The translations under genes and the position numbers were made by a program. DNA of 64,000 nt from Aliidiomarina haloalkalitolerans (GTDB taxonomy: Bacteria > Pseudomonadota > Gammaproteobacteria > Enterobacterales > Alteromonadaceae). Positions 41,200 through 58,903 of this stretch are shown here, one piece after another; position 1 is the stretch's first letter, and every line of letters begins with the position of its first letter. The stretch spans positions 496,001 through 560,000 of the forward strand of contig NZ_PIPI01000001.1 in NCBI RefSeq assembly GCF_003987315.1, written 5' to 3'. The notes beneath the pieces are model-generated. The model was given only the letters and a program-made list of their open reading frames with translations. It was not told the origin of the DNA and made no database searches.

Positions 41200-42258
41200 C
41201 TACTCCTCTTCTTGGTAAATCCCGATCGTCACCTTGCCATTGACTTTACTACCGCGATACATACCTTCGGTATTAAATGGCATGCTGACGTTGCCGTCCC
41301 GATCAAGAATTATTACACCGCCGGTGCCGCCTGCAGGTAACAGCGTGTCGTGAATGACATACTCACCTGCGGTTGCAATTGACTCGCCTAAATACTTCAC
41401 GCGTGAGCAAATCGCCGCAGCAACATGAAAACGAATAAAGTACTCGCCATGACCCGTGGCCGACACGGCACAGCTGCTATTGTCCGCCCACGTGCCGGCA
41501 CCAATAATCGGCGAATCACCAATGCGACCGTACTGTTTCGCGGTCATGCCACCAGTTGATGTTCCCGCAACTAAATTACCCTGACGATCAAGCGCAACCG
41601 CGCCAACTGTCCCCATATTAAAGTTTGGATCCCAATTCGACTGATAGGCGATGTGATCCCCTGTTTTCTCTTGCTCACGCAGCTGTTCCAGCGCTCGCTC
41701 TAATTGTTGATAACGATGCTCGGTATTGAAAAAACTGTTCTCAACCCGCTCAAGCCCCTGCTCACTTGCGAACTGCTCGGCTCCTGCACCACTGAGCATG
41801 ACATGTCGCGAGTTCTCCATAATCGCGCGCACTAAAGCAATCGGGCTGCGCACCGTTTTTACGCCGGAAACTGCACCTGCATCTAGCGTGTCACCACGCA
41901 TAATCGACGCATCTAATTCGTGTTCGCCGGTATAAGTGTACACAGCTCCTTTACCAGCATTAAACAGCGGGTTTTCTTCCATGAGTTGAATGGCTGCTAT
42001 CACAGCGTCAATACTTTCTCCACCTTGCTCAAGAATGGCATAACCTGCGTCAAGGGCGTCTTGCAATGCTTGTTTAAATTGCGCTTCCCGTTCCGGCGAC
42101 ATGTTCTCACGGGTAATAGTCCCAGCGCCGCCATGAATAGCGATTGCTATCGGCTGCTGCTCATTCGTCTCAGCTTGCACTGCCATCGGCACCAACGCTA
42201 GTGTGCATACCGTGCTAATTAGCGCCGCTATTGAAAGCTTTTGCATACCTATTGCCAT
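41200..42258 (-). CDS. iaaA: Periplasmic isoaspartyl peptidase / L-asparaginase (Ntn hydrolase)
   Basis: Plant-type asparaginase family enzyme that autocleaves to expose an N-terminal threonine and hydrolyses beta-aspartyl peptides. The 352 residues start with a Sec signal peptide (LSIAALISTVCTLALVPMAVQA), followed by IAIHGGAGTITR. The predicted nucleophile is Thr217 in NFNMGTVGAVALD, with GTSTGGMTAKQYGRIGDSPIIGAGTWAD after it. AAGGGGAT precedes the first ATG. It adds a second, unrelated asparaginase fold to the window besides ansA. Confidence 0.94.
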   Translation of the reverse strand: MAIGMQKLSIAALISTVCTLALVPMAVQAETNEQQPIAIAIHGGAGTITRENMSPEREAQFKQALQDALDAGYAILEQGGESIDAVIAAIQLMEENPLFNAGKGAVYTYTGEHELDASIMRGDTLDAGAVSGVKTVRSPIALVRAIMENSRHVMLSGAGAEQFASEQGLERVENSFFNTEHRYQQLERALEQLREQEKTGDHIAYQSNWDPNFNMGTVGAVALDRQGNLVAGTSTGGMTAKQYGRIGDSPIIGAGTWADNSSCAVSATGHGEYFIRFHVAAAICSRVKYLGESIATAGEYVIHDTLLPAGGTGGVIILDRDGNVSMPFNTEGMYRGSKVNGKVTIGIYQEEE

Positions 42259-43965: not shown

Positions 43966-43992
43966 AAAAAAGCCCCGCACAGTGCGGGGCTT
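43966..43992 (-). terminator. Terminator after TonB receptor 1
   Basis: An 11-bp GC-rich stem (43970-43980 with 43982-43992, the tips forming the loop) is followed on the minus strand by seven T. On the + strand the downstream bases are not T-rich, so it mainly ends the receptor gene that stops at 44020. Confidence 0.88.
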
Positions 43993-44019: not shown

Positions 44020-46980
44020 TTAGAACTGATAGCCGAGATTGAAGAATACACGGCGACCTAACTGGTCATACTGTGAGTAAAGCATTGCATTACCAACAGT
44101 AGTCGCACGTGACGGGCTACCTTTCGGTGGCTTCTTGTCAAACAAGTTGTTGACACCGAAGGTTACGTCTAAACCGCTATCAAACTCTTTATTCAACGAG
44201 AATGTGTGGTACAGAGTGGTTGGAGCGCTCGCTACGAAACGAACTGTCTCACCACGGTATGTACCAAACTCGCCATTCTCATAGAGGTGGTCGTTTGACA
44301 CTTTACCGGTATAGCGAATTGCGTAGTTATAGCGCCATGAGTCACGGGTTAAACCAATGTTTAATGTACCCGAATGACGTGGGCTACCCAAACGGCCAAC
44401 AACGTTGTTTGGAATACTGGTTGGGAACTGCTTCGCCGCACGCTCAATTTGGATCGTGTGATCTAAACGGATACGCAATGCACCGAATGGCGTTTGATCC
44501 ATATAGGTAAAGACAACATCCGCACCACGTACTGTTTGCTCAGCAACGTTGACGTAACCGCCACGAACCTCAGTAATGTTGTAGTTGTCGCCTGCATCGC
44601 CACCGTCGTTACGATCGAACTGGTCACAGAACGGTTCGTTCGGGAAGTTCTCAGAGTTGTAACAGAGTGACAAAATACTTGCGCCACCCACGTTACTGAT
44701 CTGGTTACGAATGATTACGTCATAGTAATCAATTGAACCGGCAAACCGGTTATCAGCCGAAGACCACACTAAACCGATACCTTCAGAGACTGAAGTTTCG
44801 GCCTGCAGGAGTCCACGACCACCACCGGTGACTGAGGTTGCAGAACCATAGTTAGAGCTATAATCCGCTGGAATACCGTCGGCCGCACAGTTTGCTGCAG
44901 CGATTGGGTTTAATGTACCTCCATCTAAACGCTCACCCCAAGCCCAGCACGGATCTTGGTTCTGGTTAAAGAAGCCAGTTTGGTTCTCTAAGAAGAGTTC
45001 AAACAGTGCTGGTGAACGGAACGAAGTACCACGTGAAGCACGAATACGGAAACCGTTACCGATAGTCCAGTTTGCACTTAGTTTGTAAGTATCACCTGAA
45101 CCATATGTAGACACGTCGGTATAACGCGCCGATGCAGTCAGGTCGAGTGCTTCAATCAGCGGCAGGTCACGGAGTAACGGGGCTTGAATCTCGGCATAAA
45201 CTGCTTTGGTCGTTGAACGGCCGGCAGTAATACCAGAGCTCGTCATACCCCATGAGTTACCCGCCAAAGTAACCTCGCCCGGAGTGTCTTGGATTTCATC
45301 CGTTTGGTAAGACACACCAACCGCAGTCGCTAATGTACCTGCTGGTAAGTCGAACAAGTCACCAGTGATATAAGCATCAAGAGTGTCTTGCTTATAAATG
45401 GTTTTACCTGTTTCGGTATCAAACAAGAAGTCACGCGTGCCTTGATCGAAGTTACCGTAGATATAATCCGGTGTGAAGAAGTCGATTTCATAGCACGGAC
45501 GGCCAGAAATAGGCGACAAGAAACCTTCACAAGGGTCACCCCAAATTGCATCTGACGCCATAAATAATGCGTCTTGTAGGATAACTTTCTGGAAGTATTC
45601 ACCACGGTTCAACGTACGCTGATAAGACACATCCCAGTTCCAATACCCAAGTGCCCCCTCAAGACCTAGTACAGCGCGCGAGTAATCAATCGTCGTCACA
45701 CTACCTGAATGGTCGGTAACTGCGGTCGGATCAAGGAATACGTTACCGTCCCAACCATCAACCAAACCAAGCCATGCTGGAATGAAGGGTTCCCAGAACT
45801 GGCGATAGCTATGAATGGTAGTTTCCCGGCGACTGTGTAAGAACTCGCTGTAGAACGAGACGGTGTCGGTCAGATCATAATCACTTTGGAAGTACAAAGA
45901 CGCGACTTCCGTTTTCGGTACCATGGTTTGGATTTCTTGGAATGGATGCGTTGAGTTCAACCAACCGTCTGACTCGCGGCTATAACCCATTGGGAACCAG
46001 CCTTCTGGTGCCGAGATGTCACCAGGTTGGGTCGGGTTATATCCAGGAATTCCGATCTCACGCAAACGACCGGTGTGGTCGAAGCCTGTGATTTGTGAGG
46101 TGTAGTTCGGCGCACCATTCGGCGGACTTAAATTCCATAACCACATACCGTAAGGTAAATCGTTACAGTGGAACTCACCAGTGCGCGGATCGATTGGATC
46201 CACTTGTGTGCTTGATTGTGCGTCGAAAATATAGCGCGTACCACATTTGAAGTGATCCCGGTCTCCACGTTTCATTTCTGACTGCAAGTTGTAGTCTGCA
46301 ACAAAACGCAATGAACCACGGTCAAATGAACGGCCAATCGTACCATTAACGCGGAACGTTTCACCGCCCGACTCAATCGGTTGGTTCATACTGACGTTAA
46401 AGCTCGATTCGTCACCACGCTTAGTAATAATGTTAATTACACCAGCAACAGCGTCAGAGCCGTACAGTGATGAAGCACCGTCTTTGAGGATTTCAACACG
46501 CTCAACAGCAGAAACTGGCAGTGCGTTCATATCAAACGCAGCAACCTGACCACGGGTACCCGCAGGCCCTGCACGACGGCCGTTTAATAATACAAGAGTA
46601 CGGTTAGCACCTAAACCACGCATTGAGATTGACTCAGCGCCTGCGCCACCTGCTGTAACCGAACCCACTGACATTGCAGAGATAAGCTGGTTCGAACCAG
46701 AAGCGACGGTTGAAGTACGAAGTAATTCACCAAGGGTGTTTAAACCCTGCTCGGTGGCAATTTCAGTACTGATGATATCGATAGGCGTGGCGTTATCTAA
46801 ACCGTCGGTGCGAATACGCGAACCAACGACTTGAATACGCTCAGGGCGATCCTGTTGCGCCTGCTCTTCTTCTTCGTTTTCGTCTTGTGCTGAAGCTACG
46901 CCAGCGAATGCAAGCGTCGAGGCAGCACCGAAGGCCAATGCCAGACGAACTGATTTACTCAGTTTTGTATTTGTAAACAT
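44020..46980 (-). CDS. TonB-dependent receptor, paralogue 1
   Basis: Outer-membrane active importer of unknown substrate. I choose the ATG at 46980 (986 residues): AGGGAGT stands 6-7 nt upstream, and it matches the starts of the other two copies. Signal peptide LALAFGAASTLAFAGVASA is followed by an acidic linker, RIQVVGSRI as TonB-box-like start, the plug (SMRGLGANRTLVLLNGRRAGPAGTRG; VERVEILKDGASSLYGSDAVAGVINIITK) and a large barrel ending in NLGYQF with a terminal Phe. Own terminator and upstream region suggest independent transcription. Large loops with many cysteines (DPCWAW, CYNSE, FCDQF) could form disulfides. Confidence 0.95.
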   Translation of the reverse strand: MFTNTKLSKSVRLALAFGAASTLAFAGVASAQDENEEEEQAQQDRPERIQVVGSRIRTDGLDNATPIDIISTEIATEQGLNTLGELLRTSTVASGSNQLISAMSVGSVTAGGAGAESISMRGLGANRTLVLLNGRRAGPAGTRGQVAAFDMNALPVSAVERVEILKDGASSLYGSDAVAGVINIITKRGDESSFNVSMNQPIESGGETFRVNGTIGRSFDRGSLRFVADYNLQSEMKRGDRDHFKCGTRYIFDAQSSTQVDPIDPRTGEFHCNDLPYGMWLWNLSPPNGAPNYTSQITGFDHTGRLREIGIPGYNPTQPGDISAPEGWFPMGYSRESDGWLNSTHPFQEIQTMVPKTEVASLYFQSDYDLTDTVSFYSEFLHSRRETTIHSYRQFWEPFIPAWLGLVDGWDGNVFLDPTAVTDHSGSVTTIDYSRAVLGLEGALGYWNWDVSYQRTLNRGEYFQKVILQDALFMASDAIWGDPCEGFLSPISGRPCYEIDFFTPDYIYGNFDQGTRDFLFDTETGKTIYKQDTLDAYITGDLFDLPAGTLATAVGVSYQTDEIQDTPGEVTLAGNSWGMTSSGITAGRSTTKAVYAEIQAPLLRDLPLIEALDLTASARYTDVSTYGSGDTYKLSANWTIGNGFRIRASRGTSFRSPALFELFLENQTGFFNQNQDPCWAWGERLDGGTLNPIAAANCAADGIPADYSSNYGSATSVTGGGRGLLQAETSVSEGIGLVWSSADNRFAGSIDYYDVIIRNQISNVGGASILSLCYNSENFPNEPFCDQFDRNDGGDAGDNYNITEVRGGYVNVAEQTVRGADVVFTYMDQTPFGALRIRLDHTIQIERAAKQFPTSIPNNVVGRLGSPRHSGTLNIGLTRDSWRYNYAIRYTGKVSNDHLYENGEFGTYRGETVRFVASAPTTLYHTFSLNKEFDSGLDVTFGVNNLFDKKPPKGSPSRATTVGNAMLYSQYDQLGRRVFFNLGYQF

Positions 46981-47064
46981 TCCAAGACTCCCTGGTACAT
47001 TGCTCATACTACATTTTATATAGACATGTAGTTTAGTGATGTAAGCGTAAGTTTTATTATTCGA

Positions 47065-47080
47065 GACAGCTGCAGCTGTC
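47065..47080. promoter_or_regulatory. Perfect 16-bp palindrome, possible operator
   Basis: GACAGCTGCAGCTGTC is its own reverse complement. Its centre is about 64 nt upstream of the predicted start of the receptor 1 transcript, a spacing typical of activator sites. The regulator is unknown. Confidence 0.4.
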
Positions 47081-47237
47081 GACTGCCCATTCAGGCGCTA
47101 CAAAGGCATTAAAAACCCAAATTAACAGTCAAAAACTGGCACTGACAGACCATATTAAAGTTAAAACACTGTTAATTGCAACGCTCAATGCTGATTTTAT
47201 GCGATTCTGATGGCTTTTTATGTGAATTTGCCGCAAA

Positions 47238-47267
47238 AAAAAAGCACCAACCCCGAAGGATTGGTGC
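47238..47267 (-). terminator. Terminator after TonB receptor 2
   Basis: GCACCAA (47244-47250) pairs with TTGGTGC (47261-47267), with an inner CC/GG pair, followed on the minus strand by a run of nine T. Confidence 0.9.
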
Positions 47268-47305
47268 AAAAAGAAACTACAAAATGTACGTTTTATTGCT
47301 GTGCT

Positions 47306-50260
47306 TTAGAAACTATAAGAGAAGTTCACAAATGCACGGCGACCTAACAGCTCATACTGAGAAGCAAACAACATGGTGTTACCCGCGGTGTTTACTGCTG
47401 CAGGAGAAGCTTGTGGTGGACGTTTATCAAACGCGTTCGCTAGACCAACAGTGATATCCATGCTGTCCATCAGTGTTTTGTTCACTGAGAATGAATGCAT
47501 CAGATACGTTGGCGCGTCGGCGATGAAACGAACGTCTTCATCACGATATGTAGTCAGGTTACCACGCGTGTAAAGGTGGTAGTTTGACACACTGCTGACG
47601 TACTGAATGTTCCAATTAAAGCGCCAGTCGTCACGCGTCAAGGTAGTATTCAAAGTACCTGATTGTTTCGGGTTACCTAAACGGCCGATATACTGAGTCG
47701 GTACGCTATCCGCAAACTGTTTGAAGTAACGCTCGATTTGCGTCATGTGGTTCAGACGCATACGTAAGTGACCAACCGGAGTTTCGGTTTGGTAAGTGAT
47801 GACAACGTCAGCACCACGAATACGCTGTTCAGAAGTATTCAGGTAACCACCACGGACTTCGTCAACACCCCAGTCGAAGTTGTTTGCTTCGGTACCAGTA
47901 CGACGGTCAATTTGACGACAGAACGGTTCGTTTTCAAAGCCATTCTCTGAGTAATAACACTGGCCAAGAACGCTTGAACCCGCAACGCTCGAGATCTGGT
48001 TACGGATCGTCACGTCATAGTAGTCAACTGACGCAGCAAAGGTATTCTCAGGGCTAGTGTAAACTAAGCCAACACCTTCAGAGGTCGAAGTTTCAGCGTT
48101 AAGTACACCTGCACCGCCACCAGTTACTGAGGTCATTGAACCACCAACACCAGCAACGTAAGTTTCAGGTACGCCAGCAGCTTGACAGTTTGCTTGTAGG
48201 ATTTCGTTAGTCGACTCAACCCAGTTAATACATGGATCAACGTTCTGACCTAAGAAACCAGTTTGACCTTCAAGGTAAAGCTCGAACAATGCCGGTGCAC
48301 GGAACGAAGTACCACGTGAAGCACGTGCCCGGAAGCCGTTACCGATTGTCCAGTTTGCGCTCAGTTTGAAAGTGTCGCCGCTACCATAGGTATTCACGCG
48401 AGTGTGACGTGCAGAGGCAGTCACATCTAATGCTTCAATTAACGGTAAGTCACGCAGCAATGGTGCTTGAACTTCAGCGAATACTGCAGTGGTTGTTCCG
48501 CGACCTGCGGTGATACCAGCAGAGCTTAAGCCCCACGAGTTACCATTTCGGGTATGGAAACCAGGAGTGTCCTGAATTTCGTCAGTCTGGTAAGACACAC
48601 CAACTGCGGTCGCTAACGTACCGTGCGGCAGGTCAAACAAATCACCGGTGATGTAACCTTCAACCGTGTCTTGCTTGTAAACAGTCTTACCTTTGTCTTC
48701 ACCGAATAGGAAGTCAGCAACGCCTGGGCCTAAGTCCGTGCCACTTAAGTGACCATGAGTAAACCAGTTCACTTGCGTGCACTGACGACCAGAGTATTCA
48801 GTCACACCGGTGCAATCATTCAAACCAAGTAAATTCTCATGAGCCATGAGCATCGAATCAGCGAAGATAATCTCTTGCTTGTATTCACCGCGGTTAAGTG
48901 AACGCTGCCACGAAGCTTCCCAGTTCCAGTAACCGAGAGAGCCTTCTAAGCCCGCAACAAAGCGCGTGTAATCGACAGTGGTTTCACTGCTGTAGTGATC
49001 GGTTAATGCAACCGGCATCACGGCTAAGCCAGCACCGTTATCCTGCCAACCAGGTAAAGTATTGATTGGAATATATGACGCCAAACCAGGGTTGTTGGTC
49101 CAGAACTGGCGTACACTGTCAATTTTTGTCGTCCGTTGGCTGTGCATTAATTCAACAAATGCAGAAACTGTATCGGTAATGTCGTAATCGGCTTGTTGGA
49201 ACACAGACCAAACAACAGACTCTGGGATCATGGTTTGATTGCGATGTAAATCACTGGTGTTATCTAACCAACCATCGGTTTCTTTAGTGTGGCCAGCCCA
49301 ATACCAACCATCTGGAGCTGATACAACGAACGGGTTACCGTACTCGCCTTCAGAAGCTAAATGTGGGAAACCAAAGCCAGTGTTATCGAACTGGAAGCGA
49401 CCCATGTGGTTGTTCCACAAGCCATAACCACTACCATTACAATGATATTCACCGGTGCGCGGATCGATCGGATCAGCACGCTCACCTGTGGTTGGATCGA
49501 AGAAATAGCGTGTTGGGCAACCAAAATGGTCGCGATCGCCACGTTTTAAACCCGAATTGTGGTTGTAATCAGCAACAACGCGGTACGAGCCACGATCAAA
49601 TGCAGTACCCCAAGTACCGTTGACACGGAAGGTTTCCCCGCCTGACTCAAACGGTTGGCTGGCAGTCACGTTGATACTCTTCTCGTCACCACGCTTGGTG
49701 ATGATGTTAATAACACCAGCAACAGCGTCTGAGCCGTAAAGTGAAGACGCACCGTCTTTCAGAATTTCGACACGTTCAACGGCAGAAATTGGCAATGCGT
49801 TCATGTCGAAAGAAGCGACCTGACCGCGGGTACCCGCTGGTCCGGCGCGACGGCCGTTTAATAGTACTAGGGTACGGTTTGCACCAAGACCACGCATTGA
49901 AATCGACTCTGCACCTGCACCACCGGCGGTAACAAAGCCAACCGAATAAGCTGAAATCAGCTGGTCTGAGCCCGACGCAATCGTCGACGTCCGCAGTAAT
50001 TCACCGAGGGTATTCAGACCCTGCTCGGTCGCAATTTCAGTACTAATAATGTCGATCGGTGTAGCATTATCTAAACCATCGGTACGAATCCGTGAACCAA
50101 CAACTTGAATTCGCTCAGGACGATCACTAGAGCGCGCTTCACGCTCTTCTTCGTCGTCATTTTCTTGCGCACTCGCAACGCCTGCTAGTGCCATGGTCGA
50201 AGCAGCACCGAAAGCAAGTGCAATGCGCACAGATTTGCTTAATTTTGAGTTCGTAAACAT
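47306..50260 (-). CDS. TonB-dependent receptor, paralogue 2
   Basis: Second copy, 984 residues from the ATG at 50260 (AGGGAGT upstream; the longer frame to 50362 has no such site). Signal peptide LAFGAASTMALAGVASA, acidic linker EEREARSSDRPERIQVVGS, plug nearly identical to copies 1 and 3, barrel ending FVNFSYSF. Closest to copy 3 overall: both share SAYSVGFVTAGG, DHFGCPTRYFFDPTTGERADPIDPRTG, RRTGTEANNFDWGVDEVRGGYLN-like and ASPAAVNTAGNTMLFASQYELLGRRAF. Differs mostly in barrel loops, as expected if substrate range has shifted. Confidence 0.95.
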   Translation of the reverse strand: MFTNSKLSKSVRIALAFGAASTMALAGVASAQENDDEEEREARSSDRPERIQVVGSRIRTDGLDNATPIDIISTEIATEQGLNTLGELLRTSTIASGSDQLISAYSVGFVTAGGAGAESISMRGLGANRTLVLLNGRRAGPAGTRGQVASFDMNALPISAVERVEILKDGASSLYGSDAVAGVINIITKRGDEKSINVTASQPFESGGETFRVNGTWGTAFDRGSYRVVADYNHNSGLKRGDRDHFGCPTRYFFDPTTGERADPIDPRTGEYHCNGSGYGLWNNHMGRFQFDNTGFGFPHLASEGEYGNPFVVSAPDGWYWAGHTKETDGWLDNTSDLHRNQTMIPESVVWSVFQQADYDITDTVSAFVELMHSQRTTKIDSVRQFWTNNPGLASYIPINTLPGWQDNGAGLAVMPVALTDHYSSETTVDYTRFVAGLEGSLGYWNWEASWQRSLNRGEYKQEIIFADSMLMAHENLLGLNDCTGVTEYSGRQCTQVNWFTHGHLSGTDLGPGVADFLFGEDKGKTVYKQDTVEGYITGDLFDLPHGTLATAVGVSYQTDEIQDTPGFHTRNGNSWGLSSAGITAGRGTTTAVFAEVQAPLLRDLPLIEALDVTASARHTRVNTYGSGDTFKLSANWTIGNGFRARASRGTSFRAPALFELYLEGQTGFLGQNVDPCINWVESTNEILQANCQAAGVPETYVAGVGGSMTSVTGGGAGVLNAETSTSEGVGLVYTSPENTFAASVDYYDVTIRNQISSVAGSSVLGQCYYSENGFENEPFCRQIDRRTGTEANNFDWGVDEVRGGYLNTSEQRIRGADVVITYQTETPVGHLRMRLNHMTQIERYFKQFADSVPTQYIGRLGNPKQSGTLNTTLTRDDWRFNWNIQYVSSVSNYHLYTRGNLTTYRDEDVRFIADAPTYLMHSFSVNKTLMDSMDITVGLANAFDKRPPQASPAAVNTAGNTMLFASQYELLGRRAFVNFSYSF

Positions 50261-50661
50261 CCCATTACTCCCTGGGGAAAACTGCAACAGTGAACAGTCA
50301 TCCACTCGTATGTGTATATTATTTTTCTTGAGGCAATAACTACACCATTGGTCAATAACCAATGACTTACAAGAATCGCCTGACGCCCGATACTAGGAGG
50401 AATGGATTAAAATCGATATGAAGCTGAACGCTGAAAACCTACTGTTTATCTCATACTTGACCAAATAGGATAAAAACTAAACAGTTACTTTACCGTTGGT
50501 TTTATTCCATTATGTTATATATGAACTTACATACTCTGAGCTTTGTTAAAATTAGTAAAGATGCATGCAAGCATCCACTAGTAAGTAAAATTGCATAAAA
50601 AAAAACACCAGCTTCGAAAAGCTGGTGCTTATTCAGTTAGACCTAAATTCTAAAATTAAGA
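50261..50661 (-). promoter_or_regulatory. Upstream region of TonB receptor 2
   Basis: This 401-bp gap has no gene. An inverted repeat CATTGGT-CAATA-ACCAATG lies at 50346-50364, about 90 bp before the ATG, and a GATGC/GCATC repeat at 50560-50575. An AT-rich TAATAT about 55 nt upstream of the ATG may be a -10, without a good -35. The distal end has the receptor-3 terminator. Confidence 0.45.
50597..50628 (-). terminator. Terminator after TonB receptor 3
   Basis: CACCAGCTT (50606-50614) pairs with AAGCTGGTG (50619-50627) with a 4-nt loop, followed on the minus strand by nine T. Confidence 0.92.
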
Positions 50662-53616
50662 TTAGAACTTGTACGAAGCATTCAAGAATGCACGACGACC
50701 TAACAATTCGTATTGAGAAGCAAACAACATGGTGTTACCTGCAGTGTTAACTGCTGCTGGTGACGCCTGTGGTGGACGCTTATCAAACACGTTTGAAAGA
50801 CCTAAAGTGATATCTAAACCGCTATCATACTGTTTGTTCACTGAGAACGAGTGCATCAAGTAAGTTGGTGCGTCAGCAATGAAGCGAACGTCTTCACCAC
50901 GATACGTTGTCAGGTTACCACGAGTATATAAGTGGTAGTTAGACACGCTGCTTACATAACGAATGTTCCAGTTATAGCTGATGCCGTCACGTGACAAGGT
51001 CGTATTTAAAGTACCAGTCTGTTTCGGGTTACCGATACGGCCTACGTACTGAATTGGTGTACTATCGTCGAACTGCTTGAAGTAACGCTCGATTTGCGAG
51101 GTGTGGTTCAAGCGAACACGTAACATACCCCATGGTGTTTCGTCTTGGTAAGTTACCACGAAGTCGGCACCACGTACGCGCTGCTCAGACGTATTCAAGT
51201 AACCACCACGAACTTCTTCAACACCCCAGTCGAAGTTATTACCTTCGTTACCGGTACGGCGCGTGATTTGACGACAGAATGGTTCGTTTGCGAAGCCAGC
51301 TTCTGAGAAGTAACAACGACTCATGACTGAACTACCAGCAACGTTTGAAATTTGACCACGAATGGTTACATCGTAATAGTCTACAGACGCTGCAAAACGG
51401 TTTTGCGGGCTAGTGTAAACTAAACCAATACCTTCAGAGGTTGAGGTTTCAGCGTCGAGCTGACCTGCACCACCACCGGTTACTAACGTCATTGAGCCAC
51501 CCACTGCAGCAATGTAGCTTGCTGGTACGCCAGCGGCTTGACAGTTTGCTTGCAAGATTTCGTTGGTTGACTCAATCCAGTTCACACAAGGGTCGGTGTT
51601 CTGGCCGGCGAAACCGGTTTGGTTCTCGAGGAACAATTCAAACAGAGCTGGCGCACGGAATGAAGTACCACGAGATGCACGCATACGGAAACCGTGACCG
51701 ATGGTCCAGTTCGCGCTGATCTTATAGGTGTCACCGCTACCGTAAGTGTTCACTTGGTTGTAACGAGCTGACGCAGTTAAGTCTAACGCTTCAATCAGTG
51801 GTAAATCACGGATTAGAGGCGCTTGGATTTCCGCATACACGGCTTTCGTGGTTGAACGACCAGCAGTGATACCTGCACCAGTTAAGCCCCAAGAGTTACC
51901 CATGCGAGTGTGGTAGCCCGGAGTATCTTGAAGTTCATCAGTTTGATACGACACACCAACTGCAGTCGCTAAAACACCCGCTGGTAAGTCGAATAAGTCA
52001 CCAGTGATATAAGCGTCGATTGTATCTTGCTTATAGATAGTGCGACCCACTTCTTCACCGAATAAGAAGTCTTCTACGCCAGGGCCATAATCGGTACCGT
52101 TGAGGTGGCCATCGGTGAACCAGTTCACTTGCGTACAAGGCTTCAGTGAAATTGCAGTAATACCAGTACAGTCATTTAAACCAAGCAATGCTTCATGAGC
52201 CATGACCATTGAGTCTTGGAAAATAATTTGGTTGCGGTACTCACCACGGTTTAATGAACGCTGCCAAGAGACGTCCCACGTCCAGTAGCCAAGTGAACCT
52301 TCTAAGCCAGCAACAAAACGGCTGTAATCAACGGTTGTTTTGCTGCTGAAGTGGTCGGTTAATGCTACAGGCATAACACCTAACGCAGGGTTAGACGCTT
52401 CCCAACCTGGTAAAGTGTTCACCGGGATGTAAGAAGCCAAACCTGGGTTACTGGTCCAGAACTGACGCACTGAGTCAATGTAGGTTTCACGCGAGCTGTG
52501 CATTAACTCTGAGTAAATTGAAACTGTGTCAGTTAAGTCATAGTCTGCTTGTTGATAAATTGACCACACGCGAGTCTCAGGAATCATCGTACGGTTACGG
52601 TGTAGTTCGCTGGTGTTGTCGAACCAACCATCAGTTTCTTTGGTGTGACCTGCCCAGTACCAGCCAGCTGGTGCTTGAGTAAGTAATGGATTGCCGTATG
52701 GCGAGCCAGACGCTGCACCAGGGAAACCAAAACCATCGCGGTCAAACTGGAAACGGCCACCGTTGTTTACCCACAAACCGAAGCCTGTGTCGTTACAGTG
52801 GTAGTCACCCGTACGTGGATCGATTGGATCAGCACGCTCACCGGTAGTTGGGTCGAAGAAGTAACGCGTTGGACAACCAAAGTGGTCACGATCGCCACGC
52901 TTCAAGCCAGTGTTATGGTTGAAGTCGGCAACAACACGGTATGAACCGCGGTCAAATGCAGTACCCCAAGTACCATTGATACGGAAGGTTTCCCCGCCTG
53001 AGTCAAATGGCTGGCTACCACTAACGTTGATGCTCTTCTCGTCACCACGTTTAGTGATGATGTTGATTACACCAGCGACCGCGTCAGAACCGTACAGTGA
53101 AGACGCACCGTCTTTCAAGATTTCAACACGCTCAACTACCGTAACTGGCAGTGAGTTCATGTCGAACGCTGCAACCTGACCACGGGTACCCGCAGGACCG
53201 GCACGACGGCCGTTTAACAATACGAGAGTACGGTTCGCACCAAGACCACGCATTGAGATTGACTCGGCACCAGCACCACCGGCAGTAACGAAGCCAACAG
53301 AATAAGCAGAAATCAACTGGTCAGAACCAGAAGCGATGGTTGAAGTACGGAGTAACTCACCTAGGGTGTTAAGACCCTGCTCGGTAGCGATCTCTGCACT
53401 GATGATGTCGATTGGCGTAGCGTTATCAATACCGTCGGTACGGATACGTGAACCAACAACTTGAATTCGTTCAGGACGCTCGCTCTCACGAGCTTCGCGT
53501 TCCTCTTCATTTTCTTCTTCTTGTGCGCTTGCCACGCCGGCTAATGCCATTGTTGAAGCTGCACCAAAAGCTAGCGCGAGGCGCACTGCTTTATTTAGTT
53601 TTGAGTTTGTGTACAT
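50662..53616 (-). CDS. TonB-dependent receptor, paralogue 3
   Basis: Third copy, 984 residues from the ATG at 53616, with AGGGAGA upstream. Signal peptide LALAFGAASTMALAGVASA, acidic linker EEENEEEREARESERPERI, plug as in the other copies, barrel ending FLNASYKF. It is a mosaic: some stretches match copy 1 (YDSGLDIT; KAVYAEIQAPL; STSEGIGLV), others copy 2 (CPTRYFFDPTTGE; ASPAAVNTAGN). It is the receptor nearest the RND/Ycf48 pair and is separated from it by 184 bp rich in hairpins. Substrate unknown. Confidence 0.95.
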   Translation of the reverse strand: MYTNSKLNKAVRLALAFGAASTMALAGVASAQEEENEEEREARESERPERIQVVGSRIRTDGIDNATPIDIISAEIATEQGLNTLGELLRTSTIASGSDQLISAYSVGFVTAGGAGAESISMRGLGANRTLVLLNGRRAGPAGTRGQVAAFDMNSLPVTVVERVEILKDGASSLYGSDAVAGVINIITKRGDEKSINVSGSQPFDSGGETFRINGTWGTAFDRGSYRVVADFNHNTGLKRGDRDHFGCPTRYFFDPTTGERADPIDPRTGDYHCNDTGFGLWVNNGGRFQFDRDGFGFPGAASGSPYGNPLLTQAPAGWYWAGHTKETDGWFDNTSELHRNRTMIPETRVWSIYQQADYDLTDTVSIYSELMHSSRETYIDSVRQFWTSNPGLASYIPVNTLPGWEASNPALGVMPVALTDHFSSKTTVDYSRFVAGLEGSLGYWTWDVSWQRSLNRGEYRNQIIFQDSMVMAHEALLGLNDCTGITAISLKPCTQVNWFTDGHLNGTDYGPGVEDFLFGEEVGRTIYKQDTIDAYITGDLFDLPAGVLATAVGVSYQTDELQDTPGYHTRMGNSWGLTGAGITAGRSTTKAVYAEIQAPLIRDLPLIEALDLTASARYNQVNTYGSGDTYKISANWTIGHGFRMRASRGTSFRAPALFELFLENQTGFAGQNTDPCVNWIESTNEILQANCQAAGVPASYIAAVGGSMTLVTGGGAGQLDAETSTSEGIGLVYTSPQNRFAASVDYYDVTIRGQISNVAGSSVMSRCYFSEAGFANEPFCRQITRRTGNEGNNFDWGVEEVRGGYLNTSEQRVRGADFVVTYQDETPWGMLRVRLNHTSQIERYFKQFDDSTPIQYVGRIGNPKQTGTLNTTLSRDGISYNWNIRYVSSVSNYHLYTRGNLTTYRGEDVRFIADAPTYLMHSFSVNKQYDSGLDITLGLSNVFDKRPPQASPAAVNTAGNTMLFASQYELLGRRAFLNASYKF

Positions 53617-53800
53617 TTTGAGCTCTCCCTGGATCACTACACAGTGATTTTGGATTTATTATTATTTCGTGCGAAATCTAACATGCGGTTTCGCACTAGT
53701 ACGGGGCGGAAAGTCCGCCCCGTGAGCTCAAGAATAAATGTAAACGAAATGAAAAATCAACCGAATGTTAAAAAAACTTTATGTACTTAACATCTAGTGA
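53617..53800 (-). promoter_or_regulatory. Structured leader between RND transporter gene and TonB receptor 3
   Basis: Three inverted repeats follow each other: ATCACT/AGTGAT at 53633-53648, GTGCGAAA/TTTCGCAC at 53669-53696, and a 10-bp GC-rich stem ACGGGGCGGA/TCCGCCCCGT at 53701-53723. None has a T-run on either strand, so they are not ordinary terminators. They may be processing or stabilising structures, or a regulated leader. Confidence 0.5.
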
Positions 53801-56167
53801 TTATAAACCGGCTGCCGGTTTCTTCGGCTTTACGCCAAAAATCCGCGCCAGCGCTGGGATTAGGATGAGTGCACCTAACATATTCCAGATAAACATGAAG
53901 GTTAATAATAAACCCATATCTGCTTGGAATTTAATCGGTGACCAAATCCATGTGGCAACGCCTATGGCAAGTGTTAAACCCGTAAAGCCAACTGCTTTAC
54001 CAGTTTTTGACAAGGCGTACAGGTAACTCTCGGTTAAATCCATGCCCTGTTTCAGCGCTTCCTGCATCTTACTATAGATATAAATGCCGTAATCGACACC
54101 GATACCGACTCCTAGCGCAATCACGGGCAGCGTTGCTACCTTGATGCCGATGCCGAGCATAGCCATCAGCGCTTGGCTCATAATGGTGGTGAACATCAGT
54201 GGTAAGACGATGCACAGTACCGTGCGAATGCTACGGAAGGTAATCAAACACAGCGCAATCACCACGCCATACACCCACAACAACATGCGGAACTGAGCAT
54301 CTTCGATAACTTTATTGGTTGCGGCCTCAATTCCAGCATTACCAGCGGCAAGTAAGAAGTCGAGATCATCAGATGGGAACGCAGCTGAGAACGCACGAAC
54401 TTCGTCAACTACACGGTTTAGGGTGTCAGCTTTGTGATCGTTCAAATAAATAATCACTGGCGCCATGCTACAGTCGCCATTAATGAGGCCCGAAGGTGCT
54501 TGCGAAATCGACGCATTCATGACGAAGTTGTCACGATTAATACTCGACCATTTCAAGTTACCCTCGTTAATGCCTGCCATACCGAGTTTTGAAACATAGG
54601 CAATCGACCGAACGGCTTGCACACCTGGAACGTTTTCCATGTGCCATTGGAAACGATCCATCAGCGCCATATTCTGATAATGAATACAAGCGCCTGGAGC
54701 AGTCTCAGCCATTACTACGAAAATATCGGTACTGGCACTGTAGTTCGCCACTTGGAAGGCGTTATCGAGGTTATAGCGCGAATCTGCACGCAATTCCGGC
54801 GCCCCTGTATCTAAGTCACCGATTTGCAGGTCTTGCGCCTTATAAATGCCCCAAGTTGCCATCAAGCCCGCGATAACCACTGCGCCAATGGCCCACTTTG
54901 GCTGCGTAAAGCGATCGAATAATTGGAAGATCGGATGGTCTTTCTTTTGCACTTCTTCAAGGTACTTGACGCCGCGTGGGCTAACACCGATGTACGAGGT
55001 TAAAATTGGCAGCAAACCTAAGTTGGTTAAAACAATGACGGCAACACCAATACTTGCAGCAATCGCGAGTTCCTTAATGACCGCCACGTCGATGACCATC
55101 AAGGTAGTGAAACCCACAGCATCAGAGATCAATGCAGTCAAGCCCGCAACATAAAGACCACGGAATGCAATTCGTGACGCCCCTACTTTGTCGTAACCTT
55201 CAACGCGGTTAGCAATAACTGCGTTAATGATCTGAACGCCGTGACTGACACCAATTGCGAAGACTAAGAATGGCACCAACATTGAGTATGGGTTAATGCC
55301 ACTACCAATCAGTTTGATAATCCCCAACTGCCAAATAACTGCGATACCCGAGCAGAGCAGGACTACAATTGAACTGCGCACACAGCGGCTATAAGCAAAC
55401 AGCATGGCAAACGTAATCAGCATAGCGAGGAAGAAGAAGCCGCCGACTAAAAGCGCGCCATCAATCAAATCACCAATGACCTTGGCAAAACCAACAATTT
55501 GAACTTTTATCGTGTCAGTTTCATAACGGGCTCGAATCTGAGACTCAAGCTGCTGTGAAAATTGATGGTAGTCAAGGCTTTCTCCTGTTTCCGGATCGAT
55601 TTCATTCAGCGGCACATAAATCAGTGCGGAACGGAAATTATTTGCGACTAAATCACCCACGGTGCCTGAACGGAGAATATTTTGCTGCAATTGCTCCATC
55701 GACTCCTGCGAACCATCGTAGTTCTGCGGAATAACCGGACCACCAACGAAACCTTCTTCGGTCACTTCCGACCAACGTACGTTCGGCGTCCAAATAGAGC
55801 GCATACCAGAACGATTAACACCGTTCAAAAACGAGATTTCATCGGTAATTTCACGCAGTAAGTCTTGATATTCTGGTGTGAAAATATCGCCTTCAGTAGT
55901 TTCCACCGATATCCGAACTGCATTCCCCATCGCCGCTAAGTCATCACTATACTTAAAGAAGTTTTGAATGAACTCGTGGTTCCCAGGAATCATTTTCTGC
56001 AAGCTAGCGTCTGGACGTACTTGTGCTGCGTGATAAAACAGAAATGCAGTAATGACGGCGAAGAATAATAACCAAGGCAAACGGAAGTTAAATAAAATCT
56101 TTTCAAATCGCCCGGAATGACCGTGAATTTCAACTAGGTCGAATTTCTTGTTATTTGTGTCGTTCAT
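53801..56167 (-). CDS. RND superfamily transporter, MMPL-like
   Basis: Inner-membrane protein of 788 residues with the duplicated RND layout: helix 1 at about 28-47, a large periplasmic domain (about 50-230), five helices (about 236-395), helix 7 near 428-446, a second periplasmic domain and five further helices to 780. The second half has VIALGVGIGVDYGIYIYSKM with the membrane Asp typical of MMPL/HAE3-type proteins; the corresponding first-half segment reads FAIGVSHGVQIINAV without an Asp. This group exports or moves lipids and other hydrophobic compounds. No periplasmic adaptor or TolC is nearby. Lies 15 bp after the Ycf48-like gene. Confidence 0.93.
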   Translation of the reverse strand: MNDTNNKKFDLVEIHGHSGRFEKILFNFRLPWLLFFAVITAFLFYHAAQVRPDASLQKMIPGNHEFIQNFFKYSDDLAAMGNAVRISVETTEGDIFTPEYQDLLREITDEISFLNGVNRSGMRSIWTPNVRWSEVTEEGFVGGPVIPQNYDGSQESMEQLQQNILRSGTVGDLVANNFRSALIYVPLNEIDPETGESLDYHQFSQQLESQIRARYETDTIKVQIVGFAKVIGDLIDGALLVGGFFFLAMLITFAMLFAYSRCVRSSIVVLLCSGIAVIWQLGIIKLIGSGINPYSMLVPFLVFAIGVSHGVQIINAVIANRVEGYDKVGASRIAFRGLYVAGLTALISDAVGFTTLMVIDVAVIKELAIAASIGVAVIVLTNLGLLPILTSYIGVSPRGVKYLEEVQKKDHPIFQLFDRFTQPKWAIGAVVIAGLMATWGIYKAQDLQIGDLDTGAPELRADSRYNLDNAFQVANYSASTDIFVVMAETAPGACIHYQNMALMDRFQWHMENVPGVQAVRSIAYVSKLGMAGINEGNLKWSSINRDNFVMNASISQAPSGLINGDCSMAPVIIYLNDHKADTLNRVVDEVRAFSAAFPSDDLDFLLAAGNAGIEAATNKVIEDAQFRMLLWVYGVVIALCLITFRSIRTVLCIVLPLMFTTIMSQALMAMLGIGIKVATLPVIALGVGIGVDYGIYIYSKMQEALKQGMDLTESYLYALSKTGKAVGFTGLTLAIGVATWIWSPIKFQADMGLLLTFMFIWNMLGALILIPALARIFGVKPKKPAAGL

Positions 56168-56182
56168 TCGAATGCTATCCCC

Positions 56183-57328
56183 TTAAATGCCGTGCATTGC
56201 CGTCACTGCCGGCAAGGAAAAGGTGAGAAGTCCTGAGCGACCGATTAGAATTAATTGGTCGTCAGACATTTGCCGTACACCAGCTAATGGTGAACTGGAC
56301 TCATGCTCAAAACGGAGTAATGCGCGAGTTTCTGGGTCTATCACTAATAACGTCCCCGAGTGACCTGCTAGAACTACGCGACCATCATTAAGAATTGTGC
56401 CCGCATTTAGGTTATAGCGGGTATTGGTATCGACTTGCTCAAAGTCATAACCGTCGCCCGACACAAACACATTACCGCGTAATCCGTAAATCCAGAGTTG
56501 CCCTAAATCATCAAATAGCGCCCCAAATAGCGAACCATGGTAAGGCGAGTCGAGCATTTCAAAGGTTTCGCCCTGATCATAACTGCGTGCCAACAAGCCT
56601 GCTTCGCCAACGAGGATAAGCTCCCCATCTGGCCCTACAACCAACTTATTAATATGATTGCCAATAATATTATCGATTGCGCCATTGTTTACCGACCAAC
56701 TGCTGCCACCATCAGTGGTTCGCAACATAGTCCCGTAAGCACCAACCGCAATCCCTACTTCACGATTAAAGAAGTGTAAATCAAGAAATGGTTTCGTTGG
56801 CCCGACATCAAATTGAATTTCGGCACCGCCAATATGGAAAAACAGCTCGTCGAGCTCAAACTCCAATTCTTCTGCTTCGAATTCGTCTTCAGCGTTTTCA
56901 ATCGCATCCTCGAGTTCAATTTGGCGTTCTTGCAACCATTCATACTCAAGGGCTAATAACTGATGTCCATCGAGACGCATCTGCCAGCTTTGTCCGCCAT
57001 CGGTACTTTGCAATAAAACACCATCGTGCCCTGCTACCCAAATGTGCTCGTCATCGACTGCGTGAATTGCAGTTAACAATACACTGGTCGGCACTTCGCG
57101 TTGTTGCCAGTTTGCGGGGTTATTAAATTCAATAATGGTACCGAAACCACCCACAGCAATAAAATGTTCACCATGCTGAGCAATGCCGGTAATAAGACCC
57201 TGATTCGCGCGTTGTGCTTGTGGCGCTGGGGTATGCAGCGGGTCATAATTCTCTATTGGCTCTGGAGCACTTGCATAAGCTGTTGCAAGTGCGCTGGCTA
57301 AGATTCCCGCAAAGGCAATCCGTTTCAT
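56183..57328 (-). CDS. Ycf48-like beta-propeller protein, secreted
   Basis: The 381 residues start with a signal peptide (MKRIAFAGILASALATAYASA). The remainder has BNR/Ycf48-type blades (GVLLQSTDGGQSWQM, GTMLRTTDGGSSWSV, GLLARSYDQGETFEM). An acidic, helical insertion at about 124-170 (rich in Glu, Leu, Asp) interrupts the propeller after the second blade. Photosynthetic Ycf48 helps assemble photosystem II; in non-photosynthetic bacteria the family is usually found beside RND/MMPL and DUF1329 genes, with unknown function. Probably co-transcribed with the RND gene. Confidence 0.9.
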   Translation of the reverse strand: MKRIAFAGILASALATAYASAPEPIENYDPLHTPAPQAQRANQGLITGIAQHGEHFIAVGGFGTIIEFNNPANWQQREVPTSVLLTAIHAVDDEHIWVAGHDGVLLQSTDGGQSWQMRLDGHQLLALEYEWLQERQIELEDAIENAEDEFEAEELEFELDELFFHIGGAEIQFDVGPTKPFLDLHFFNREVGIAVGAYGTMLRTTDGGSSWSVNNGAIDNIIGNHINKLVVGPDGELILVGEAGLLARSYDQGETFEMLDSPYHGSLFGALFDDLGQLWIYGLRGNVFVSGDGYDFEQVDTNTRYNLNAGTILNDGRVVLAGHSGTLLVIDPETRALLRFEHESSSPLAGVRQMSDDQLILIGRSGLLTFSLPAVTAMHGI

Positions 57329-57553
57329 AGATTAACTCCAGTTTTTGTTGTCTGCGAAACTGGCGTTTCGCCCAAAATTTGTTATTGTTCACGATTGTAT
57401 AGTCTAACAGGCGTTTGAAAACCCTTCTAACCTAATTTTTCTTGTATTTTATTTTCTTTAAAATTGGTGTAGCTTACAGATTAACCCATTCGGAACTAAT
57501 TTCCGGACTGGTGTTCATAATAAAAGAACGCACAGGAACTAAGGACAACGACA
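57329..57553. promoter_or_regulatory. Divergent promoter region, Ycf48-like gene / DUF1329 gene
   Basis: The 225-bp AT-rich gap between divergent starts must hold both promoters. A CGGAA-CTAAT-TTCCG inverted repeat is at 57490-57504, and AAGGA precedes the DUF1329 ATG. Confidence 0.45.
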
Positions 57554-58903
57554 ATGAAAAAAATCATGCTTACTGCCGGAGTCATGGCACTTTCGCTGGT
57601 ATCAGCTGGTGTCAACGCAGCGGTTTCGCAAGAAGAAGCAGCCCGCTTGGGTCAGGATCTGACTCCATTAGGTGCTGAGCGTGCGGGTAATGCCGACGGA
57701 ACTATCCCCGAGTGGACTGGCGGTTATTCACGTCCAGGTGAGGATGTAAACCGTCCACAAAACCCATTCCCAGACGACCGTCCACTTTTCACTATTACCC
57801 GTGAGAATTTAAATGACCACCGCGACCGCCTGAGCCCAGGTCAAATCGCGATGTTCGAACGTTACGACACCTTCAAAATGCACATTTATGAAACGCGTCG
57901 TACTGCTGCTTACCCGCAAGACATTTACGACATCGTCCGCAAAAATGCGGAGAATGCTCGTTTAGTTGAAGGCGGTAGCGGCCTTGTTGGTTTTGAAGGT
58001 TATGTCCCCTTCCCAATTCCAAATTCAGGTTTAGAAGTCATCTGGAACCACCTCACACGCTATCGTGGTGGTGCAGTACAACGAACCGTTGGCCAGTTCC
58101 CAGTGCAAGCCAACGGCCGTTTCGAAATGGTACGTTTGCGCGAACAACTCGTTTGGCCTGAGCACCTTGAAGGTGGCCGTACTGACGCTGATGACAATAT
58201 TTTGTTCTACTTCTTACAAGAAGTACTGGCTCCAGCGCGTTTAACCGGTACCGTATTGTTGGTTCACGATACCATTGACCAAGTGAAAGAAAGCCGCCGT
58301 GCGTGGTTGTACAACGCTGGTCAGCGCCGCGTTCGTCGTGCACCGAACGTTGCTTATGACGGCCCAGGTACTGCGTCAGACGGTCTGCGTACTTCTGACG
58401 GTCTTGATATCTTTAATGGTGCTCCAGACAAGTACGAATGGAAACTCGTTGGTAAGAAAGAAATGTACATTCCGTACAACAACTACAAGTTGATGGATCC
58501 GTCATTGAAGTACACCGACATCATTATGCCAGGTCACTTGAACCCAGAACATCTGCGGTATGAGTTACACCGCGTATGGGTTGTCGAAGCCACGGTAAAA
58601 GATGGCGAGCGTCATATTTATGCTCAGCGTAACTTCTTTATCGACGAAGACACCTGGACAGCGTCAGTCGTTGACCACTACGACGGCCGTGGTGAATTAT
58701 GGCGTGTTGCTGAAGCCTATAACGCACAATTCTACGGTAGCGACGTACCGTGGATGGCAGCAGAAGCACTCTATGACCTCAACAATGGTCGTTACATTGC
58801 TTTAGGCTTAGCGAATGAAGAAGGTGATTTCATCGACTTCAATATTACGCCTCGTCGCCAAGACTTCACCCAGCAAGCATTACGCCGCATGGGTATTCGT
58901 TAA
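57554..58903 (+). CDS. DUF1329 periplasmic protein
   Basis: The 449 residues have a Sec signal peptide (MKKIMLTAGVMALSLVSAGVNA) and the DUF1329 domain to the end: LTPLGAERAGNADGTIPEWTGGY near the N-terminus, NAYLTG-like central region RRAWLYNAGQRRVRRAPNVAYDGPGTASDG, and ELHRVWVVEATVKDGERHIYAQRNFFIDEDTW. The domain resembles LolA/LolB-type lipid-binding folds and is often encoded with DUF1302 barrels, Ycf48-like and RND proteins; this is family context, not demonstrated here. Divergent from the Ycf48-RND pair. A strong terminator follows. Confidence 0.93.
   Translation: MKKIMLTAGVMALSLVSAGVNAAVSQEEAARLGQDLTPLGAERAGNADGTIPEWTGGYSRPGEDVNRPQNPFPDDRPLFTITRENLNDHRDRLSPGQIAMFERYDTFKMHIYETRRTAAYPQDIYDIVRKNAENARLVEGGSGLVGFEGYVPFPIPNSGLEVIWNHLTRYRGGAVQRTVGQFPVQANGRFEMVRLREQLVWPEHLEGGRTDADDNILFYFLQEVLAPARLTGTVLLVHDTIDQVKESRRAWLYNAGQRRVRRAPNVAYDGPGTASDGLRTSDGLDIFNGAPDKYEWKLVGKKEMYIPYNNYKLMDPSLKYTDIIMPGHLNPEHLRYELHRVWVVEATVKDGERHIYAQRNFFIDEDTWTASVVDHYDGRGELWRVAEAYNAQFYGSDVPWMAAEALYDLNNGRYIALGLANEEGDFIDFNITPRRQDFTQQALRRMGIR

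Follow-up and report, generated by a model that had tools for sequence, protein, structure and literature searches.

Which outer-membrane protein serves an inner-membrane RND transporter whose gene stands close to three TonB-dependent receptors and to no DUF1302 barrel? The question is raised by a block of six genes in the window analysed here, i.e. the whole stretch of 64,000 nucleotides taken from the genome of Aliidiomarina haloalkalitolerans (G000; G and L numbers denote genomes and loci). An earlier note had grouped the six genes into one envelope system and suggested that the receptors replace the DUF1302 barrel which usually accompanies related genes. The comparison with relatives leads elsewhere: the block probably comprises three parts of a known four-part system for transport through the envelope and, beside them, unrelated TonB receptors, with DUF1302 encoded behind etfBA and with fatty-acyl import, as a stand-in for FadL, as the likelier function. 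The list of open reading frames (ORFs) and Pfam place the six genes where the note had put them, in the families it had named:

53801-56167, minus strand: RND/MMPL (HAE3-like) inner-membrane transporter, 788 amino acids (aa); Pfam MMPL, 3.5e-30
56183-57328, minus strand: Ycf48-like beta-propeller, 381 aa; PSII_BNR, 7.7e-17
57329-57553, no strand: putative divergent promoter region common to the Ycf48-RND and DUF1329 genes, with conserved blocks including CTAACNGGYGTTTGAAAAC
57554-58903, plus strand: DUF1329 protein, 449 aa; Pfam, 1.8e-155; predicted LolA/LolB-like domain at residues ~155-448
50662-53637, minus strand: TonB-dependent receptor 3; Plug, 2.6e-17; accessory array
47306-50362, minus strand: TonB-dependent receptor 2; Plug and barrel model; 82% identity to receptor 3, residues 5-991
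44020-47007, minus strand: TonB-dependent receptor 1; Plug and barrel model; 66% identity to receptor 3

The barrel is absent from the block, as the note had said, but not from the genome. A search of 38 genomes of relatives, 17 of them of the genus, located a DUF1302 gene at G000:C25:166267-168048 with 548 bits, and the assignment was confirmed on the protein. This gene lies on a contig other than that of the RND, Ycf48-like and DUF1329 genes (the triad), and the four genes do not form a single cassette. Since the barrel is encoded elsewhere, the puzzle of a triad without a barrel dissolves, and the unlinked DUF1302 is a matter of organisation, not of composition. RND, Ycf48-like protein, DUF1329 and a genomic DUF1302 are all present, which makes the set a member of the AmeABCD type.

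The association between RND and DUF1302 is consistent across samples. The 30 relatives which carry this RND (E<=1e-30) are exactly the 30 which carry DUF1302, and among 94 sampled class genomes, G000 included, the RND was found in 15 (profile E<=1e-60) and DUF1302 in all 15, both RND cut-offs being of our own choice. DUF1302 matches at E<=0.001 occur in 27 of the 94, those in G060 and G090 being partial. All 15 named genomes reached through RND loci also possess DUF1302, although one of them (G038) is probably G016, which had already been counted. Of the 13 relatives outside the genus that hold both, 11 have DUF1302 no more than 5 kb from the RND gene; the exceptions are G022, where the two are 0.5 Mb apart, and G033, where they fall on separate contigs of a fragmented assembly.

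Within the genus, DUF1302 occupies a fixed place, following etfB-etfA directly, in the same orientation and with a gap of 152-208 bp (17/17 genomes), and Etf domains were confirmed for the G000 genes upstream of it. The pieces examined from Idiomarina aquatica and I. loihiensis show the same neighbours, and two Pseudidiomarina have etfA close to DUF1302; no etf gene was seen near DUF1302 in three further Pseudidiomarina pieces of ~4.8 kb each. Between etfA and DUF1302 stands a long, conserved inverted repeat, approximately ACAAGCAGGTTag...ctAACCTGCTTGT and slightly variable (L037:6059-6220 and the corresponding place in 16 congeners), which is a candidate terminator, attenuator or operator. 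A protein of ~880-930 aa, which stands where DUF1302 would be in nine Marinobacter-type loci, was considered as a new partner and rejected, the seven tested all being M1 aminopeptidases; in the four Marinobacter-type genomes searched, DUF1302 is located outside the fetched locus.

That RND, Ycf48 and DUF1329 belong together, as the note had supposed, is supported by their linkage in 17/17 genomes of the genus, and the three form one conserved unit, followed by genes for a 3-hydroxyisobutyrate-dehydrogenase-like protein and a methyltransferase (16 congener loci and the window). The Ycf48-like and RND genes are spaced by 15 bp and the DUF1329 gene is divergent, both as described in the note. A broader survey covered the best 80 of at least 579 confirmed named RND-Ycf48 loci, a selection which leans to close relatives and in which L095, L096 and L097 come from genomes already in the set of 38. 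Ycf48 stands beside RND in all 80 (in L098 the Ycf48 match is split over two frames), DUF1329 is inside the locus in 54 and DUF1302, detected with a profile of our own, in 29; among the 60 loci of at least 20 kb, the counts are 43 and 23. These DUF1302 counts cover a distance of ~10 kb, frequently shorter where contigs are short, and are therefore uninformative on genome-wide absence. One congener, G005, has a second, divergent DUF1329-DUF1302-RND set (L070, G005:C2:166000-181000).

The best NCBIfam match of the RND protein is HAE3 (TIGR00921) at 136.9 bits, below the 351.9 cut-off of that model. With an MMPL match and a Ycf48 neighbour it qualifies as AmeD-type, the likeness being one of family and gene place. 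The Ycf48-like protein matches the Ycf48 structures 5ojr and 2xbg at ~5e-14, and both sequence and structure matches assign it to this family; it is a putative periplasmic protein and displays, by eye, a signal-like N terminus, while a PHROGs search returned one weak match only. An acidic insert at residues ~120-170, helix-like by eye, is shared with Idiomarina, one Paraglaciecola and one Marinobacter sequence and is missing from one Pseudomonas sequence; it is possibly an element for docking to the RND. The region between the Ycf48 and DUF1329 genes contains blocks strongly conserved across the genus: CTAACNGGYGTTTGAAAAC is exact in 13 of the 17 genomes, differs by one mismatch in the other four, and has a single exact copy in the G000 genome. 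A promoter-like -35/-10 pair is found here at 57421-57394 on the minus strand, from a scan which overall gave no more such sites than shuffled sequences.

What the four parts may do together is indicated by predicted folds, compared by means of VIA lists which cover only folds already ranked by Foldseek. The AlphaFold model of DUF1329 (mean predicted local distance difference test score, pLDDT, 89.5) has a predicted lipid-carrier fold of the LolA type over residues ~155-448. This part aligns to LolA3 (9tp6) with Z 22.7 and a root-mean-square deviation (rmsd) of 2.3 over 236 residues, and to the DUF1329 structure 4z48 with Z 20.3; Z values are 17-23 for LolA3, 4z48, 3bk5 and 3buu and ~7-11 for classical LolA/LolB chains, whereas the N-terminal 150 residues are barely covered by the list. 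The DUF1302 model is a barrel of moderate confidence (mean pLDDT 78.4) whose best refined VIA alignments are to OprD/Occ channels (Z 16-17, ~300 residues, and among the first ten an rmsd of 3.1-3.6); maltoporin and the exporter AlgE follow closely. Occ channels take up carboxylates. By analogy with LolA, which carries lipoproteins, DUF1329 would ferry some hydrophobic compound through the periplasm and so connect the DUF1302 channel with the RND-Ycf48 complex, so that a role in the movement of hydrophobic compounds, already proposed in the note, seems likely. The cargo would most likely be fatty acids or fatty-acyl compounds and the inward direction is the likelier one, with the system standing in for FadL in the genus; direction and cargo are the weak steps of this explanation.

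The distribution of FadL and FadE bears on these two steps. FadE was found in 17/17 genomes of the genus, and FadL (PF03349) was detected in none of the 17 (preset cut-off 0.001). Among the 38 relatives, the 24 without FadL all have DUF1302 and FadE, and the 8 without DUF1302 all have FadL, the FadL-bearing count including two relatives with weak matches (G019 and G024). Counted by genus, 6 have both, 8 only DUF1302, 8 only FadL and 0 neither (P = 0.018 in a Fisher test which, like all those reported here, is uncorrected for relatedness). As the FadL-less relatives all have DUF1302 and the genus has FadE and lacks detectable FadL, the system may stand in for FadL, an idea which is plausible for the genus. 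The extended proposal, that the system is a FadL-independent route of fatty acid entry and the principal one in Idiomarinaceae and in other bacteria without FadL, is tentative and rather doubtful.

Several observations weigh against fatty-acyl import. The class sample shows no depletion of FadL at the preset cut-off, with 9/15 system-bearing genomes having it versus 55/79 of the others (P = 0.55), nor at 1e-20 (6/15 versus 46/79, P = 0.26); a difference appears at 1e-40 (3/15 versus 39/79, P = 0.048) and at another stricter cut-off (P = 0.041), all cut-offs beyond the preset one having been picked after the data had been seen. The association being absent from the class at the preset cut-off, FadL substitution is unproven in general. 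ETF is an electron carrier of beta-oxidation, but it also serves other dehydrogenases. Inspection by eye and a motif search revealed no operator common to the DUF1302 gene and the triad, the motif search giving 3 matches at <=3 mismatches versus 8 in a reversed-pattern control. The closeness of the DUF1302 model to AlgE points in the same direction, as does Foldseek alone, which puts porins of several kinds first for DUF1302 with TM-scores of 0.29-0.39 by query.

The receptors, for their part, follow a history of their own. All three match the Plug domain (E-values of 5.7e-18 to 2.6e-17) and the Pfam barrel model matches the first two; receptor 3, which gives no match to this model at 0.001, is classed as a TonB-dependent receptor through its 82% identity to receptor 2, of which it is a tandem paralogue. 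The start of receptor 3 is likely the ATG near 53616; for receptor 2, the true start probably lies further downstream than the TTG at 50362. The gap between RND and sbcB, in which they lie, varies in content: G000 and G005 carry three receptors there, G001 and G003 carry two, G006 and G013 a single one each, and 10/17 genomes of the genus have none. In G007 it holds a distant receptor (28% identity) with a fasciclin-domain gene and a GMC oxidoreductase gene (L077:6739-12234), and on account of this varied content the gap seems to be a repeated insertion site. Matches to receptor 3 (E<=1e-60) were found in 16/38 genomes, 13/17 in the genus and 3/21 outside, where none of the three is beside RND. 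Receptor matches away from the triad occur in G002, G004, G008, G009, G010, G011 and G016, weak (~31%) in G009 and G010 and as a split gene in G016. The G011 receptors are preceded by ExbB, ExbD (confirmed), TonB and tetratricopeptide-repeat (TPR) genes, and that of G004 by two genes of the ExbB type, an ORF of 133 aa where ExbD would be expected, TonB and a protein which, by eye, resembles the TPR one of G011. The two arrangements are found at L090:692-10216 and L088:1894-11742. A midpoint-rooted tree fits two receptor lineages, each present in several species. Internal stops lie near the start of the receptor gene in G003, G006 and G013 (L073, L076, L083), where the triad genes are open, and suggest loss, switching or a later start codon.

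Within the window, each receptor is followed by its own terminator-like hairpin. The scan gave 23 sites versus 16.8 in shuffled sequences, an excess so slight that only long T-tailed hairpins carry weight; it demands a T tract, and a perfect 9-bp hairpin with no directly following T tract, a candidate transcript boundary between RND and receptor 3, is hence not among its sites. The corresponding features are:

50603-50630, minus strand: terminator-like hairpin and T tract behind receptor 3 (terminator scan)
47244-47267, minus strand: terminator-like hairpin and T tract behind receptor 2 (terminator scan)
43970-43992, minus strand: terminator-like hairpin and T tract behind receptor 1, also on the plus strand behind sbcB (terminator scan)
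53701-53723, minus strand: perfect 9-bp G+C-rich hairpin in the gap between RND and receptor 3 (read from the sequence)

These data decide the place of the receptors. The note had itself named independent placement in relatives as the outcome that would speak against a single six-gene system, and this is what the neighbourhoods revealed, with an empty slot in 10/17 genomes and receptors elsewhere. That the receptors adjoin RND on the same strand in G000 and five congeners is in favour of their being the outer-membrane partner of the triad in place of DUF1302. Such a role is nonetheless very improbable, because DUF1302 is in the genome (as in 30/30 relatives, 15/15 class members and 15/15 named genomes with the RND), the slot is often empty and the same receptors stand elsewhere behind ExbB and TonB genes (G004, G011). 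Their premature stops beside open triad genes and the hairpin behind each of them argue likewise, as does the survey of the 80 best named loci, in which profiles of our own found receptor-like ORFs in one only, a congener with a 97% identical RND, and none in the 79 others; none was found in the 17 loci L054-L070 either. It is also improbable, if less so, that the receptors bring the same hydrophobic cargo over the outer membrane as accessories, adding to DUF1302 in a few species: their repeated arrival in the same slot, including the distant G007 receptor with its GMC oxidoreductase, would fit, but congeners place them behind ExbB/TonB genes and in G004 an S9 peptidase next to the receptor hints at peptides or other TonB cargo. 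The receptors are a separate, variable tandem array and no part of the transport system, and judging from the empty slots, the individual hairpins and the ExbB/TonB neighbours in two congeners they appear to be dispensable.

A stronger competitor concerns direction. The same four-part system may work outward, exporting or detoxifying hydrophobic compounds such as solvents, terpenes or surplus fatty acids, with DUF1302 as exit channel; this is possible, though less probable than import. The place of DUF1302 behind genes of a beta-oxidation electron carrier speaks against it, together with FadE in the absence of detected FadL across the genus and the resemblance of the DUF1302 model to channels known for uptake, a resemblance shared with the exporter AlgE. 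The literature is divided. In Pseudomonas putida, PP_0765 (DUF1302), PP_0766 (DUF1329), PP_2018 and PP_2019 are reported as essential on Tween 20 (PMC10866462), which disfavours export. On the other side, HAE3 RND pumps are said to deliver their substrates to the periplasm, and deletion of ameABCD lowers monoterpene tolerance and raises the influx of the dye Nile red, which fits efflux (PMC6394551); a study of a regulon in Betaproteobacteria proposes a role against toxic aromatics and solvent stress (PMC6449761).

With the puzzle of the missing barrel gone, a useful remainder is left, namely the clean co-occurrence of the parts, the genus-wide place of DUF1302 behind etfBA and the pattern of FadE without FadL. 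Taken together, they offer a testable hypothesis for fatty acid uptake without FadL and for the role of a widespread, little-studied system. If the extended proposal given above is true, an RND complex and a LolA-like shuttle would constitute a lipid import line over both membranes, tied to beta-oxidation through the etfBA-DUF1302 neighbourhood.

The block is flanked by sbcB on one side and by the 3-hydroxyisobutyrate-dehydrogenase-like gene on the other, and its near neighbours are housekeeping-type genes. Its ORFs of at least 150 aa are the six named genes only, and none of them is an adaptor, TolC or TonB/ExbBD gene, in agreement with the note; adaptor or TolC partners of the HAE1 type (AcrAB-TolC) were likewise absent from the ORFs in and close to the block, the sole range searched. 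An Rfam search of the window gave no match. An asparaginase-2-type gene with a signal-like N terminus (window 41200-42258) adjoins sbcB and is kept in 16/16 congener loci fetched, a contig end cutting one.

Nothing on the genus Aliidiomarina and this system was found among the literature matches listed, in a search which left subscription papers mostly outside. The closest described relative is AmeABCD of Castellaniella defragrans, composed of a DUF1302 barrel, a DUF1329 protein of the LolA superfamily, a COG4447 photosystem-II-assembly-related periplasmic protein and a 787-aa HAE3 RND (PMC6394551). The four families are the same by description, DUF1329 belonging with AmeB and the Ycf48-like protein with AmeC, whereas the arrangement differs: in C. 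defragrans a monoterpene island holds ameABC immediately upstream of ameD, and in Aliidiomarina DUF1302 is unlinked behind etfBA and DUF1329 is divergent. The P. putida proteins provide a second parallel, with DUF1302, DUF1329, a periplasmic protein and an efflux-type transporter in two loci judging by locus numbers; predicted contacts are weak for PP_0766-PP_0765 and PP_0766-PP_2019 and strong for PP_2018-PP_2019 (PMC10866462), and we read PP_2018/PP_2019 as the Ycf48-like and RND members. There the DUF1302 and DUF1329 locus numbers are neighbouring, whereas in Aliidiomarina DUF1302 alone has a separate place and DUF1329 is kept beside Ycf48-RND.

The same families recur around aromatic compounds. 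In Betaproteobacteria, AphS/AphR/AphT-regulated COG4447-COG1033-PF07044-DUF1302 genes form one operon with all four families together, regulated with aromatic catabolism, whereas the Aliidiomarina triad has housekeeping-type neighbours (PMC6449761). The 'nanopod' gene cluster of the benzene-degrading Desulfobacterota strain ORM2a, for which movement of benzene across membranes is proposed, resembles the set by description in its DUF1329, YCF48-related, MMPL and porin-like proteins, and differs in its anaerobic benzene context and in extra stress-type and hypothetical proteins (PMC13101534). The families also recur in a phenol-hydroxylase cluster (PMC7012976), and in work on nanopods both DUF genes lie within a phenanthrene cluster (PMC3110197). 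Among single components, the LolA/LolB lipoprotein carriers have a fold like that predicted for the C-terminal domain of DUF1329, which has an extra N-terminal part and is not known to carry lipoproteins; FadL/TodX (PF03349) would share the proposed job, the entry of long-chain fatty acids or hydrocarbons, but belongs to another family and acts as a single protein. Set beside these systems, the locus is of an ordinary kind: it belongs to a known four-part system, with its genes split between separate places.

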